Shown here: positions 14,155-21,147 of the stretch, in pieces
How positions within the stretch are numbered: the first letter of the stretch is position 1
Layout of the letters: every line of letters starts with the position of its first letter
Assembly (NCBI GenBank): GCA_002239105.1
Contig: MPNQ01000008.1
Location: 62,001-126,000, forward strand
Reading direction: 5' to 3'
From: a marine group bacterium Sva0996 bin134
Lineage (GTDB): Bacteria; Actinomycetota; Acidimicrobiia; Acidimicrobiales; Bin134
DNA: 64,000 nucleotides
Notes under the pieces: generated by a model
Seen by the model: the letters and a program-made list of their open reading frames with translations, nothing else
Databases searched by the model: none
Told to the model about the DNA's origin: nothing
Program-made: the position numbers and the translations under genes

Positions 14155-14248
14155 GGGAGCAGCACCACCGAAGCGGTGAACCCGTGTAGGAGATGGAGGC
14201 CGGGCGATCATGGGAACAGCACCACCGAGGCGGTGAACCCGTGGAGGA
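14155..14248. repeat. 57-bp tandem duplication of the FIST gene 3' end
   Basis: Bases 14155-14191 and 14212-14248 are near-identical 37-base copies, differing at a few positions, with a 57-base period and weaker similarity in the remaining 20 bases. The second copy encodes the last residues of the FIST protein (minus strand, HGFTASVVLFP). The first is an untranslated echo of it between that gene and the transketolase start (readable as VVLLP). Confidence 0.85.
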
Positions 14249-15332
14249 AATTGTGGCCGCCGATCGGTCCGAGCTCGCCGGCGCAGAACATCCCCGCTAC
14301 CGGCGCTGCATTCAAGGCCTCATGGACCACGGCGGCATCATGGTCGGGGCCGTCGAACAAATGGGTGCCTCGGCCATTGCAGGTGAACACCAGAGCAGAT
14401 CCCGCGGAAGCATCGGCCATCAGCTCGCGCAGGTCTTCATCAGCGGTGGCCGCGTCTCGCACCTGGAACTGGACCGTGGTTCCCACGTCTACCGAGTCGC
14501 CTACCGCCAACGAGCCAGTCTTCTCATCGGCGCCGATCAATCCGCGGATCAAGAAGTCTCCCCGGTCGAATTCAGACTTATGTTCGTCGATGACAATGCC
14601 GATGTGAAGCCCCTTGGCCACTAGGGCCCGATCGGATTCGTCCATCGCCAGCAAAGTCTCCCTCAACCGGTCCACCGCCGGGCGACCTCCCATTTCAGAC
14701 ACGATGTTGCCCTCTGAGCTGGTCACCGTGAAGGGTTGGCCGATGGGGCGGCAGCCCTGGGAAACAACTGTGTGAACTTCGACCGCGGGGTCGAGTAGGA
14801 CGCCCACTGCCCCGTCATTGAAGACTTGGCTGCCCAAGACGAGGCGGTTGCCTCCTGGGCGTCCAGCAGCAGAAGCCAACCCTCCCACCACAGTCAACTG
14901 CGACCCTGCTCCTAGCAGCGCATCGCTGGGGAAGGTAAACGGGTCGGGAATCACCAGCAGGGTTCCTCTTGCATCGGTCGGCATGCCGCCAACTGCCCAT
15001 CCGTCGGGGCCTCGAATTGCTTCGAGCCGAACCAACTGGGCGGGGCATTGGGCCGCAGCCCATAGGGAGAGGGCGGGGCGCTCCTCGACTTCGTTGGGGC
15101 CGCCGATTACCGACACCGCGGTGGCTCCGAGTAGAGCCGACGGGGCCAGTGCCTGGTGGATGGTATCGGCGACCTCGTTTATCTGCTCGCGGTGGGAGGC
15201 AGAAGTGAACAGCACGGCCAGGTCGGGCGATGGACCCACCGCTTCGAGAATCTCGCCGATTACCTCGCCGACGGCGCTAGCCGAGTCGGGATGTTCGGAT
15301 AAAGCGGCCCCATACCTGCTCACTACCTGCAC
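14208..15332 (-). CDS. FIST-domain sensory protein
   Basis: The 374-residue protein has the FIST_N pattern from residue 6 on (RYGAALSEHPD, DLAVLFTSASHREQINE, LLGATAVSVIGG, VVGGLASAAG) and a FIST_C domain ending FTCNGRGTHLF, VAGMFCAGELGPIGGHNF, HGFTASVVLF. FIST domains are thought to bind small ligands, perhaps amino acids, and are often fused to or encoded near signalling proteins. Here the domain stands alone, with no kinase or cyclase next to it. The start is a GTG. The true ligand and output are unknown. Confidence 0.85.
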   Translation of the reverse strand: MQVVSRYGAALSEHPDSASAVGEVIGEILEAVGPSPDLAVLFTSASHREQINEVADTIHQALAPSALLGATAVSVIGGPNEVEERPALSLWAAAQCPAQLVRLEAIRGPDGWAVGGMPTDARGTLLVIPDPFTFPSDALLGAGSQLTVVGGLASAAGRPGGNRLVLGSQVFNDGAVGVLLDPAVEVHTVVSQGCRPIGQPFTVTSSEGNIVSEMGGRPAVDRLRETLLAMDESDRALVAKGLHIGIVIDEHKSEFDRGDFLIRGLIGADEKTGSLAVGDSVDVGTTVQFQVRDAATADEDLRELMADASAGSALVFTCNGRGTHLFDGPDHDAAVVHEALNAAPVAGMFCAGELGPIGGHNFLHGFTASVVLFP

Positions 15333-16384: not shown

Positions 16385-17029
16385 ATGGGGGTGTTGTCGG
16401 AATTCGAGTCGAAGCAGCTCTTGGCCAGCCATGGCATCGTGGTGAGTCGGGACAGGCTGGCTCGGTCGGCCAATGAAGCCGTGGCCGCGGCGGCGGAGAT
16501 CGGCGGTTCGGTAGCGGTGAAGCTCTGTGGGCCGTCGTTGGCCCACAAGAGCGAGCGGGGTTTGGTGCGGTTGGGCCTGGATAACGCCGATGGGGTGCGG
16601 TCCGCGGCCGAGGACCTACTGGTTGCGGCCACCGAGGAAGACGGCGAGGTGGCCTTGTTGGTTTCGGAGATGGTGTCAGGAAACCGGGAGCTCATCGTTG
16701 GCGTGGTGCTCACCGAGCAGTTTGGCGCGGCGCTCATGCTTGGAGTGGGAGGGATTTTGGCCGAAGCGGTGGGGGAGGCCGTATTCCGGCTCCTGCCGGT
16801 GACCAGGCCCGATTGCCAGGACATGATCGATGATCTGGGGATGGACGCTCTGTTGGGTCCACTGAGGGGCGAGCCAGCGGTAGACAGGAATGCGCTGGTG
16901 GACGTTCTGCTGGCCCTAGCCGATGCCGCTAGCCGGGACGGGATCGAAGCTATCGATGTGAACCCCCTGGTGATCCGCGAAGGCCTGCCGGTAGCGGTAG
17001 ACGCCCTGGTCGTGATGAGCAGTAGATGA
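16385..17029 (+). CDS. ATP-grasp (beta) subunit of an NDP-forming acyl-CoA synthetase
   Basis: The 214-residue protein is an ATP-grasp domain of the acetyl-CoA synthetase (ADP-forming) type: SEFESKQLLASHGI at the N-terminus, VAVKLCGPSLAHKSE with the nucleotide-contacting Lys, LVSEMVSGNRELIVGV, and IEAIDVNPLVI at the end. Such subunits phosphorylate ADP while an acyl-CoA is cleaved, or the reverse. The partner alpha subunit follows with a 4-base ATGA overlap. The start could also be a few codons upstream. The acyl substrate is not evident. Confidence 0.85.
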   Translation: MGVLSEFESKQLLASHGIVVSRDRLARSANEAVAAAAEIGGSVAVKLCGPSLAHKSERGLVRLGLDNADGVRSAAEDLLVAATEEDGEVALLVSEMVSGNRELIVGVVLTEQFGAALMLGVGGILAEAVGEAVFRLLPVTRPDCQDMIDDLGMDALLGPLRGEPAVDRNALVDVLLALADAASRDGIEAIDVNPLVIREGLPVAVDALVVMSSR

Positions 17030-18498
17030 ACACGGACAGCTTCGACCTCTTGTTCAATCCCAAGGGCATTGTGGTGGCCGGTGCCTCCACTCATCCGGGC
17101 AAGTTCGGCTTCGTCGCCCTTCACAACGTACTTGCTGGAGGATTCGAGGGGCCGGTGTTCGCCACGAACCCGGACCAGCCCACAATACTGGGAGTCGAGA
17201 ATCTGGCTTCGGTCAGCGAAGTGCCCGCGGGGGCCGCCGACCTGGTTATGGTCTGCACTCCGCCCCAGGCGTGCCCCGACATCTTGCAGACGGCGGCCAG
17301 CCGGGGGATCGGCGCGGCTTTCATCGCCTCAGGAGGATTCCGAGAGGCCGGTGCCGATGGAGCTCGAGCCGAAGAGGAGTTGGTCGAATTGGCGCGTTCG
17401 CTGGGCATGGTGGTGGCCGGACCCAATGGACAGGGGTTGATCTCCACCCCGGCCAAGTTGGCGGCGCAGATCGTGGCCCCGGTTCCCCCTCCCGGCCCGA
17501 TTGCGGTCGCGAGCCAGTCGGGCAATCTCGTGTCTGCATTCATGAACTACGCCACCCACAGTGGGGTGGGCATTAGCCGAGCGGTGAGCGCGGGCAATGC
17601 GGCGATGGTTGGCGTAGTCGACTATCTGGGCTGGTTTGCCGACGATTCCCATACCAAGGCCATGGTCGCCTATGTGGAGGGGGTGGAAGACGGTCGAAGA
17701 TTCGCGACCCACATCCGAATGGCGGCCGAGAAGAAGCCGGTGGTGCTGGTCAAAGGAGGTACTACCCCTCGCGGAGCGCTGGCCGCGGCCAGCCACACTG
17801 GAGCGCTGGCCACCGACGACCGGGTGTTCGACGGCATGGTTCGCCAAAGCGGCGCAGTTAGAGCCAGCACCATCGAAGAGGCGTACGACGCGGTGGCCGC
17901 CTTCGCTACTCAGCCGCTGCCCGCCGGGCCTCGCACGCTGGTGCTCTCCAGCGCGGGCGGCTGGGGGGTCATTGCCGCAGACGCAGTGACGAAGTCGAGT
18001 CTGGAGCTGATTGCCCTTCCCGCCGATCTGGAAGCAGCCATCGATGAACTGGTGCCGCCCCGCTGGAGTCGAAACAATCCGATCGACCTGGCTGGAGGCG
18101 AGAGCCGCGACACCATTCCCGAGGCAATCAACCTGGTGGTAGATCATCCTGAGGTCGACGCAGTGGTCTATCTGGGAATGGGCATCCAGGCCAATACCGC
18201 GTCCCACTTGCGGGCAGGTCCGTATTTCGAGCCGGCTGAACTAGCCCGTATCTGCGAGTACCACGAACGCCAGGACAGCCGCTTTGCCCAAGCCGCGGCT
18301 GAAGCCTCGGCTCGCACCAACAAACCGATTCTGGCGGCCACCGAGTTGGCGATCACCCAACCCGGCAATTCCGGTCCCGCCACGATGGCCGCCGACAGGC
18401 GCTACTGCTTCCCCTCTGCCGACCGGGCAGTGCGGGCTCTACACCACCTGTGGTGTTACGCCCGATGGCGCAGGCGCCACCTGTCCGCGGGGACGTGA
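17026..18498 (+). CDS. CoA-binding (alpha) subunit of an NDP-forming acyl-CoA synthetase
   Basis: The 490-residue protein starts with a CoA-binding Rossmann domain (NPKGIVVAGASTHPGKFGFV) followed by succinyl-CoA-ligase-like domains (VAGPNGQGLIST, IAVASQSGNLVSAFMNYA, KPVVLVKGG, AASHTGALATDD). The His in the last motif is where the family carries its phosphohistidine. The pair with the upstream ATP-grasp gene reproduces in two polypeptides what many bacteria encode as one fused protein. It interconverts acyl-CoA with free acid and ATP. Confidence 0.87.
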   Translation: MNTDSFDLLFNPKGIVVAGASTHPGKFGFVALHNVLAGGFEGPVFATNPDQPTILGVENLASVSEVPAGAADLVMVCTPPQACPDILQTAASRGIGAAFIASGGFREAGADGARAEEELVELARSLGMVVAGPNGQGLISTPAKLAAQIVAPVPPPGPIAVASQSGNLVSAFMNYATHSGVGISRAVSAGNAAMVGVVDYLGWFADDSHTKAMVAYVEGVEDGRRFATHIRMAAEKKPVVLVKGGTTPRGALAAASHTGALATDDRVFDGMVRQSGAVRASTIEEAYDAVAAFATQPLPAGPRTLVLSSAGGWGVIAADAVTKSSLELIALPADLEAAIDELVPPRWSRNNPIDLAGGESRDTIPEAINLVVDHPEVDAVVYLGMGIQANTASHLRAGPYFEPAELARICEYHERQDSRFAQAAAEASARTNKPILAATELAITQPGNSGPATMAADRRYCFPSADRAVRALHHLWCYARWRRRHLSAGT

Positions 18499-18556: not shown

Positions 18557-20092
18557 GTGCGTCGAATTCTGATGCCCATTCTGCTGCTTGCGGTTGCTTT
18601 CGCGGCGCTTTTTGGCTCTAACTATCTGAGCGACCAGCTCCACGAGGACCTGGGAGAGGTTTCCGCCGACGGCACAGTCCCCCCCGGTTTGGGGACCCCT
18701 CTGGTTTCCACCCGCCGGCTTACCCCGATGCTGGCCCCGTCGCTTACCGAGCCTGGCTTCTTCTCCACGCTGGACGACATCATGGCCTCCGCCCCAACGT
18801 CGGCCTGCGTCCACGTCACTCTCGATGGCCGAGGCCCCTCGTTCTATGAAAGCGGCGGCAATATCCAAGTGATGCCCTCAGATGCCTTCTTGCTTCTCAC
18901 GCTGGCCACTGCTCATCAAGAGCTCGGACCCGACCACACCTTCACCACTTCGGTCCTGTCGATCGTCCCGATGGAAGACGGGGTGGTCAACGGCGACATA
19001 TACCTGGTCGGCGGAGGTGATCCGCTGCTTTTGACCACGGAGTATCTGACCACCCTTGAGGATGGGGTGAATCGGCTCCATACTCCCATCGAGGAGCTGG
19101 CGCAGGATCTGGTGGACGATGGCATGGCTCTGGTGACCGGCGCAGTGGTGGGCGATGCCACTCGCTACGACGACTTGCTGTACGTCGGCTCGTGGCCCGA
19201 GAGGATCATCCAAGCCGAGAACATCGGTACCCTGCTGGCCCTGCAATTCGATGACGGCTGGGTGCAGTTCCCCGTTTCGGAGTCGGAGCTGGAAACCGAT
19301 GACACTGCTGCTGGAGGAGCCGAGGAAGAGGTCGGCTATCAGGCCGCAGAGGACCCGCCCTTCTACGCGGCAGCGTTGTTTGACGACATGCTCGAAGCCC
19401 GCGACGTGGTAATCCGCCGCAGCCCTCGTTCCGAAGCGGTCCCCGAGGGAGAAGAACTCAACATCTTGGCGTCGATTGAGTCGGCGCCCCTAAAGGACCA
19501 CTATCAGCAAATCCTCGATAATCGCGACGTCGAGACCGTTGAGCTGTTGCTGAAGGAAATCGGCCGGGTCACGTCGGGTACGGGCAGCACCCGAGCGGGA
19601 GCCAGTGCAGTTGAGACCGTCTTGGCGGAAATCGGGGTTGACGTGGAGGAGTTCCAACTCCTCCAATTCGACGGTTCGGGACTGGATCCGGCCAATGTTG
19701 CCAGCTGCCCGGTGTTCACCTCGCTTCTAAACAGCGATGAGTTCAGCCCCCTATTCCACGAGCTTCTGCCTTCCGCGGCCGAGCCAGGCCCACTTCAGAG
19801 CCGCTTCGCCAGCGTCAACAATCCCGCGAGGATAAGGGCTCTGTCGGGCGGAACCGCGACCACCTCGTTGTTGATGGGATATATCGACATTGGGCGCGGC
19901 CAAGAGTTGACGTTCGCATTCATTGCCAATCAAGCCTCCACTACAGATCAAGCCTCCACTACCGATCAACAGAGCACAGCAGACAATCAGGCCCTACGGG
20001 AGCTGGAAGAGCGAATCGTTCGCCAACTGGCCAGCCTGGAATCCAAGCCGAGCCTTGACGACCTCGTTCTCGAACCGCTCCGCCTCGGCTGA
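18557..20092 (+). CDS. PBP4-like (peptidase S13) protein lacking catalytic motifs
   Basis: This 511-residue protein, with an N-terminal signal anchor (about residues 5-20), follows the D-Ala-D-Ala carboxypeptidase S13 fold. Recognisable segments are LGPDHTFTTSVL, GDIYLVGGGDPLLLT, DGSGLDPANVASCPVFTSLL and RIRALSGGTATTSLLMGYI. The active-site motifs are not intact. SxxK is S108-D-A-F111, KTG is replaced by L429-S-G, and the SxN region reads DNRD. It should sit outside the membrane and probably binds rather than cuts peptidoglycan or a partner protein. An acidic insert (ETDDTAAGGAEEE) and a repeated ASTTDQ tail are unusual. The start is a GTG. Confidence 0.8.
   Translation: MRRILMPILLLAVAFAALFGSNYLSDQLHEDLGEVSADGTVPPGLGTPLVSTRRLTPMLAPSLTEPGFFSTLDDIMASAPTSACVHVTLDGRGPSFYESGGNIQVMPSDAFLLLTLATAHQELGPDHTFTTSVLSIVPMEDGVVNGDIYLVGGGDPLLLTTEYLTTLEDGVNRLHTPIEELAQDLVDDGMALVTGAVVGDATRYDDLLYVGSWPERIIQAENIGTLLALQFDDGWVQFPVSESELETDDTAAGGAEEEVGYQAAEDPPFYAAALFDDMLEARDVVIRRSPRSEAVPEGEELNILASIESAPLKDHYQQILDNRDVETVELLLKEIGRVTSGTGSTRAGASAVETVLAEIGVDVEEFQLLQFDGSGLDPANVASCPVFTSLLNSDEFSPLFHELLPSAAEPGPLQSRFASVNNPARIRALSGGTATTSLLMGYIDIGRGQELTFAFIANQASTTDQASTTDQQSTADNQALRELEERIVRQLASLESKPSLDDLVLEPLRLG
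19931..19984 (+). repeat. 18-bp tandem repeat in the PBP4-like gene tail
   Basis: Units at 19931 and 19949 differ at one base; a third, diverged unit starts at 19967. They encode QASTTD, QASTTD and QQSTAD just after the last core strand. Confidence 0.8.
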
Positions 20093-20124: not shown

Positions 20125-20763
20125 ATGACTGACACGGCCACGATGGCCATGTTCCCTTTGGGGATGGTCCTCCTACCCACAATGGTGGTGCCTATCCACG
20201 TATTTGAGCCCCGCTACCGGCAGATGACCAAAGACTGCCTGGACAGTGACCGGGAATTCGCGGTGGTGCTCATTGAGCGGGGCAGCGAAGTCGGTGGCGG
20301 CGACACCCGCACCCACGCTGGCACAGTGGCCAGGATCATCGAAGCCCAGGAATTCCCAGACGGCCGATGGGGCCTGGTTGCCGGTGGGATTCGTCGAATC
20401 CGGGTTTCCCGATGGTTGGAGGACGATCCCTATCCCCGGGCCGAGGTCCAAGATTGGCCCGATGCCGAGCAAAGCGAGGAAGACCTCGACTATGTAGCCG
20501 TCCAACTGCCTCCGACAACGACTGTGTGGCGGCGGGTACTGGCGTTGCAGTCTGAGTTGGGCGCCCCAGGGCCTCCGGCCGCCTTTGAGCTGTCTGATGA
20601 CCCGGCGGCCGCGGTATGGCAGCTCGCCGCGCTGTCTCCTTTGGGACCGTTGGATCGGCAACGGCTGTTGACCGCGGAGGGCACGGCTCACCGTTTGGGT
20701 CTGTTAGCCGAGTTCCTGGCCGATGCAGAGGAGGTCATCCGAGCTCGAATCGAGATGGGGTAG
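20125..20763 (+). CDS. Stand-alone LON substrate-binding-domain protein
   Basis: The 212-residue protein corresponds to the N-terminal domain of Lon protease without the ATPase and protease parts: FPLGMVLLPTMVVPIHVFEP at residues 10-29, RYRQMTKDCL, GTVARIIEAQEFPDGRW, LVAGGIRRIRV. Single-domain forms of this family are common in actinobacteria and their role is not well defined; substrate recognition for proteolysis is the usual suggestion. It lies 32 bases downstream of the PBP4-like gene. Confidence 0.85.
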   Translation: MTDTATMAMFPLGMVLLPTMVVPIHVFEPRYRQMTKDCLDSDREFAVVLIERGSEVGGGDTRTHAGTVARIIEAQEFPDGRWGLVAGGIRRIRVSRWLEDDPYPRAEVQDWPDAEQSEEDLDYVAVQLPPTTTVWRRVLALQSELGAPGPPAAFELSDDPAAAVWQLAALSPLGPLDRQRLLTAEGTAHRLGLLAEFLADAEEVIRARIEMG

Positions 20764-20805
20764 GGGAAACCGCCGGGTTAGGCTGATCGTTTGCAGGAGG
20801 AAGCT

Positions 20806-21147
20806 GTGCCAGATCGCCCAAAGGCCACCAAAGGGTCCAACACACCCAACAAGGTGGTGGCCGAATTGAAGACGCTGCTCATCGGCTACGCCCGACAAGA
20901 GATCGTGACGCCGTTGACTCAGCTTGGGAGAACGCTGAAGCTCGGCATTCTCGGCGGGCTGAGCATCGGCGTCGGGCTGGTTTTCTTGGCCGTTGCCGGA
21001 CTGCGCTTGCTCCAGACCGAGGCCTCCGGAGTGTTCGACGGCAACATGAGCGCCTTGCCTTATGTGGCGGTGCTCATCGGTGTGGTGGCTGTACTGGCAG
21101 CCGCGGTTGTGGTGAGAGCTCGGATGTCGAGAGGAGGTCACCAATGA
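20806..21147 (+). CDS. Small membrane protein, actinobacterial holin-like superfamily
   Basis: About 113 residues with a charged N-terminus (VVAELKTLLIGYARQEIVTP) and two hydrophobic segments at about 45-70 and 84-104. This layout matches the actinobacterial phage-holin-like/DUF1469-type membrane proteins, but the match is by pattern only. I place the start at the GTG at 20806, five bases after an AGGAGG sequence (20795-20800); an earlier in-frame TTG would put that ribosome-binding site inside the gene. It overlaps the next gene by four bases. Confidence 0.6.
   Translation: MPDRPKATKGSNTPNKVVAELKTLLIGYARQEIVTPLTQLGRTLKLGILGGLSIGVGLVFLAVAGLRLLQTEASGVFDGNMSALPYVAVLIGVVAVLAAAVVVRARMSRGGHQ

Follow-up and report, generated by a model that had tools for sequence, protein, structure and literature searches.

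What does a D,D-peptidase do once the residues of its active site have been replaced? The question is raised by a gene in the window analysed here, a stretch of 64,000 nucleotides of contig MPNQ01000008.1 from a member of the Acidimicrobiales. The gene (18557-20092, with a GTG start) encodes a protein of 511 aa related to peptidase S13, the family of PBP4. It and all of the features within it that are described below lie on the forward strand.

Predicted fold

Membership of the S13 family, proposed in an initial annotation made from the sequence alone, is borne out by profile and structure comparisons. The protein matches the Pfam Peptidase_S13 profile (PF02113) with 145 bits against a cut-off of 22.8, and the PBP4 equivalog TIGR00666 with 112.3 bits, narrowly above its cut-off of 107.8. 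Its closest solved relatives by sequence are PBP4a (DacC) of B. subtilis (PDB 1w5d; E 9e-26, the best match), the Actinomadura R39 DD-peptidase (PDB 1w79) and E. coli PBP4. An AlphaFold2 model of the 511-aa protein (mean pLDDT 84, pTM 0.79, from a 30-sequence alignment), whose structure matches were also searched with Foldseek, has the three-dimensional fold of PBP4. The model superposes on R39 over residues 64-497 (Z 37.1, with 27% identity), on PBP4a with Z 32.9 and on E. coli PBP4 with Z of about 34. Only one S13 gene was found in the window's genome.

Residues 2-31 (18560-18649) form a predicted hydrophobic helix, a membrane anchor or signal segment that is kept genus-wide. PBP4a differs in this respect, being attached to the membrane by a cluster of lysines in domain II (PMC4604126). 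PBP4 (DacB) of M. tuberculosis is likewise an actinobacterial S13 protein with an N-terminal signal segment (PMC10815838).

Two further departures from the family pattern had been pointed out, and both are present. The acidic insert (residues ~243-266; 19283-19354) is predicted to be disordered, with pLDDT below 50 at 248-258, and occurs throughout the genus with variable sequence. The 18-bp tandem repeat (19929-19969; 2.3 copies by TRF) encodes ASTTDQ units within the coding frame and sits in a low-confidence loop, but it is private to the window genome, being absent in the 21 other species of the genus. Both features are outside the main finding.

Loss of the catalytic motifs

All three catalytic motifs are changed, as the initial annotation had claimed, and alignment to PBP4a and R39 refines two of the three readings. 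The former SxxK is D109-A-F-L112 (18881-18892): where PBP4a has P-A-S-S-L-K and R39 has P-A-S-N-M-K, the window protein reads P107-S-D-A-F-L, placing D109 in the Ser column and L112 in the Lys column. The loss had thus been recognized correctly, but the proposed register (S108-D-A-F) was off by one. S108 was considered as a shifted nucleophile and rejected: there is no Lys three residues on, and some species have T or A in place of S108. The loss of SxN, previously read as DNRD, also stands, with the exact motif being R323-D324-V325 (19523-19531), in which R323 occupies the Ser column, V325 the Asn column, and D324 is kept. The former KTG is L429-S430-G431 (19841-19849), as first described. 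By comparison, R39 has S49-x-x-K52, S-x-N and K-T-G, the motifs of PBP4a are intact, and M. tuberculosis PBP4 keeps S114-T-N-K117, S295-D-N297 and K408-T-G410. The S13 hallmark DGSG (residues 372-375; 19670-19681) is retained in the window protein and is invariant across the genus as well as among intact orthologues.

These replacements recur across the genus and fall into narrow classes. Over 22 species, column 109 is E in 12, D in 9 and G in one, and column 112 is L in 16, V in four, I in one and M in one. Column 323 is R in 19, with G, L and N once each, and column 325 is I (15), V (6) or A (1). In the KTG region, column 429 is L (14) or F (8), column 430 S (21) or A (1), and column 431 G (19) or A (3). 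The substitutions are D/E, L/V/I/M, mostly R, I/V and L/F at columns 109, 112, 323, 325 and 429, respectively. Neither the Ser nor the Lys of SxxK, nor the SxN motif, nor the Lys of KTG is present in any of the 22 species. In contrast to this, S109, K112, S323, N325, K429 and G431 are invariant in 58 of 58 intact orthologues at the same locus, and because of this invariance the motif changes are not due to chance. Given the established chemistry of PBPs, we infer from the alignments that the window protein would not be acylated by peptidoglycan or beta-lactams.

An artefact, in which the motifs lie elsewhere or were wrongly assembled, has a negligible probability. The named relatives are metagenome-assembled genomes throughout, but 22 assemblies concur, two of them single-contig genomes, as do phmmer, two MAFFT alignments and the structure model.

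Conservation and selection within the genus

Each of the 22 species of the genus carries one copy, free of stops, with every motif lost; intact orthologues, sought among these close relatives, numbered none. The other 21 copies share 55-78% identity with the window protein. Among named genomes, Acidimicrobiia metagenome bins yielded relatives at 67-76% identity; one of these bins is Candidatus Poriferisocius aerobius, a name that suggests a sponge symbiont lifestyle for these relatives.

Nei-Gojobori dN/dS values for the closest pairs in the genus are 0.11-0.22. Over 189 pairs the median is 0.195, but distant pairs have saturated synonymous sites, and we rely on the close pairs only. The range is also 0.11-0.22 in a second lineage without the catalytic residues (family f35, below), and in neither group are values above those of intact orthologues. 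The catalytic residues are gone, and the predicted fold and purifying selection are kept across species. We consider it well supported by these sequence comparisons that the gene is a maintained pseudoenzyme rather than one in decay. The earlier idea of a conserved, exported pseudo-PBP thus holds, with 22 of 22 species lacking the motifs, purifying selection, and the N-terminal hydrophobic anchor retained.

A decaying remnant without function is very improbable. In 131 of 397 genomes of the order, about one third, the gene has no match, so the ancestral gene is dispensable in some lineages. This reading is nevertheless contradicted by the open frames in all 22 species, dN/dS of about 0.2, the retention of structural columns and the recurrence of the same state in other families. 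Where S13 was not kept, it is cleanly absent, with the flanking genes 55, 84 and 111 bp apart (L163, L176 and L164). A very diverged S13 gene hidden in the match-less genomes was therefore rejected wherever both flanks are visible.

A conserved locus

The locus order ACS-S13-LON-TrmI-Mpa-Dop is conserved across the order. With local variations, the gene lies downstream of a CoA-ligase pair or a desaturase and upstream of a LON-domain gene, TrmI, ferredoxin, Mpa and Dop, in lineages with the catalytic motifs (intact) and without them (dead) alike. In the window, the upstream syntenic neighbour is a CoA-binding/succinyl-CoA-ligase-like protein (17026-18498) and the downstream one a LON substrate-binding-domain protein (20125-20763), both identified by Pfam and both on the forward strand. 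Because the position is the same whether the copy is dead or intact, the dead gene is an orthologue in which catalysis was lost in situ. In most other families of the order that have S13, the enzyme at this locus is intact, which shows that the loss is derived and does not make the pseudo-PBP reading wrong. For example, L025, L064 and L078 share the locus, the cysteine pair and the S-x-R-R motif described below with the window protein, at ~30-34% identity, but unlike it have full SxxK, S-D-N and KTG motifs. A paralogue with an active copy elsewhere was rejected, since the only S13 gene of the genome is the dead one, at the conserved locus.

Two other genes of this region recur in other families. 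A small ORF (20791-21147) downstream of the LON-domain gene is kept at the same place in several families and has a weak match to Holin-X (PF07332; 20.5 bits, below the cut-off). A FIST N/C-domain protein (14208-15332) is a conserved member of this neighbourhood in many of the order's families.

Repeated loss across the order

The family search found S13 in 266 of the 397 genomes of the order, and SxxK is intact in 76 of 120 aligned sequences. Dead copies occur well beyond the window's genus. All four aligned copies of family f17 are dead, as are all eight of f27, in which the catalytic Ser is lost and the Lys kept. In f35, genera g35 and g202 are dead (7 of 7 copies), and the sister genus g147 is intact. 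In two genomes of f7, the second copy of a tandem pair is dead and directly adjoins an intact copy.

Some of these groups vary in how far the motifs have changed. In the f27 copies (L032, L096, L097, L098, L101, L106, L107 and L108), Ser is replaced by G, T or N and the KTG position reads KTS, KAY, HYS or similar, as if motif loss had been caught part-way. Among the f7 tandem pairs (L095 and L093, also L043 and L161), the second copy is degenerate in G084 and G391, and both copies are intact in G027 and G330.

On the tree, the dead/intact label needs three changes, and the starred branches force three. A single clade of the dead copies of f1, f17, f27 and f35 is rejected, at a cost of 51 log-likelihood units (p-AU 0.0012), a test subject to long branches and to the choice of the constrained group after the first tree had been seen. 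A single origin of the dead copies was discarded on this result. The sequence phylogeny thus shows no fewer than three losses of catalysis in the orthologous group, with f1, f17 and f27 representing one loss or up to three. The different replacement residues among the losses agree with multiple events.

The pattern of replacements also bears on the possibility of a different reaction, catalysed by acidic residue 109 together with others. Column 109 is acidic in 21 of the 22 species of the genus, and E is found there in most f35 dead copies as well. However, it is G in G004, and column 323 varies among R, G, L and N; beyond the genus, column 109 is Y, H or D in f17 and G, T or N in f27, and no common new active site is seen. 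We regard new chemistry as improbable.

Features retained by dead and intact copies

The window protein has only two cysteines, C84 (18806-18808) and C384 (19706-19708). Across 120 sequences, both are present in 106, neither in 13, and one of the two is cut off in a single sequence. This co-occurrence argues for a disulfide, which would link C84 to C384. The pair is found in 58 of 58 intact orthologues and in 41 of 41 dead copies of f1, f17, f27 and f35. Of 12 sequences classed as off-locus copies, only two have it, and both of these group with the main clade. A second group of S13 paralogues in the order, lying away from this locus (L051-L055, L058, L059, L068, L072 and L079), has intact SxxK but neither C84 nor C384.

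A juxtamembrane S-T-R-R (residues 51-54; 18707-18718) follows the S-x-R-R pattern common to intact orthologues. R54 is invariant over 30 sequences. It is present in 41 of 41 dead copies of the four families and in 51 of 58 intact ones, and is mostly missing from off-locus paralogues; R53-R54 thus follow the distribution of the cysteine pair, less strictly. Judged by these alignments, both features track the orthologous group irrespective of catalysis.

Much of the rest of the protein is also retained. Of the columns with 90% conservation or more in intact orthologues, about two thirds remain at that level in the genus; GGGDP, W213, E329, K333 and DGSG are among them. Those lost include S109, K112, S323, N325, K429 and T430.

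A proposed non-catalytic role

The protein body probably does a second, non-catalytic job. We lean, with little more than even confidence, towards a maintained S13/PBP4 pseudoenzyme, orthologous to an intact D,D-peptidase at the same locus, that acts as an anchored, probably disulfide-locked scaffold or allosteric regulator. The non-catalytic role would already have been present in the intact enzyme. Where the chemistry was no longer needed it would have been dropped, and a partner-binding role would have outlived catalysis. As a membrane-anchored extracytoplasmic protein, it would keep hold of a synthase or hydrolase of the cell wall by means of surfaces that the intact enzyme also uses. Judged from the alignment, as is the disulfide, the old cleft may have been repacked by hydrophobic L112, V325 and L429, together with an acid-Arg pair formed by D/E109 and R323. 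Our confidence falls from the lack of acylation, through the disulfide and the repacked cleft, to partner binding. The genomic neighbours (a CoA ligase, a LON-domain protein, a tRNA methyltransferase and proteasome genes) have no evident wall function, and the fold could have been retained for reasons other than a scaffold role.

The main rival is a ligand sensor, a protein that would still bind a ligand of the wall (a muropeptide, lipid II or another) without a covalent bond and act on a partner by signalling or gating. Some degenerate wall enzymes are ligand sensors, and the S13 fold is kept here with the DGSG and GGGDP segments conserved. Against this, aliphatic or charged residues have taken over the columns for binding the carboxylate and backbone of D-Ala-D-Ala, P225 and N232 are also replaced, and there is no attached signalling domain. 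Asp142 and Arg351, which we take to be the substrate-pocket residues of R39, were dropped as a test of peptidoglycan recognition, as these columns lack conservation among intact orthologues too. We consider a sensor unlikely. The peptidoglycan sensor suggested in the initial annotation finds no support, the columns that would hold D-Ala-D-Ala being now acidic, Arg or aliphatic; the scaffold suggested alongside it would fit better.

The fold family is well known. We found no conserved inactive or pseudo-PBP4 in the open-access literature searched, which excludes most subscription journals; what appears to be new relative to that literature is a genus-wide, repeatedly evolved dead form at one locus. 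For low-molecular-weight PBPs, it is usually difficult to tell non-catalytic roles apart from enzymatic ones. At this locus, catalysis has disappeared several times from a protein otherwise kept under selection, so that the conserved features common to dead and intact copies point to important surfaces.

Cell wall enzymes of the genus

The three PF00905 transpeptidases of the window genome each have SxxK and KTG. Family searches of 10 genomes of the genus identified no S11 or VanY carboxypeptidases and no YkuD L,D-transpeptidase; the genomes are incomplete, which makes single absences weak evidence but not the agreement of ten. S11 is above the cut-off in none of 30 genomes with a dead S13, and is present in eight of 11 tested genomes without S13. 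Wall trimming in the window's genus may thus be unusual, raising the question of how cell-wall pentapeptides are managed without the usual trimming enzymes. S12 proteins (PF00144) occur in six of seven genus genomes tested, so some D,D-carboxypeptidase activity, of the S12 type, could remain.

A broader proposal, which we advance tentatively and think somewhat more likely wrong than right, is that the primary function of the PBP4 at this locus in the Acidimicrobiales is non-catalytic, with the cysteine pair and the juxtamembrane R-R as its signature, and that enzyme activity is optional. Several lineages would then have kept the body only, and the window's genus would build a peptidoglycan wall without an S11, S13 or VanY D,D-carboxypeptidase and without an L,D-transpeptidase. 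YkuD or VanY members are present in other dead lineages, and their loss is thus a feature of the genus rather than a general correlate of a dead S13.
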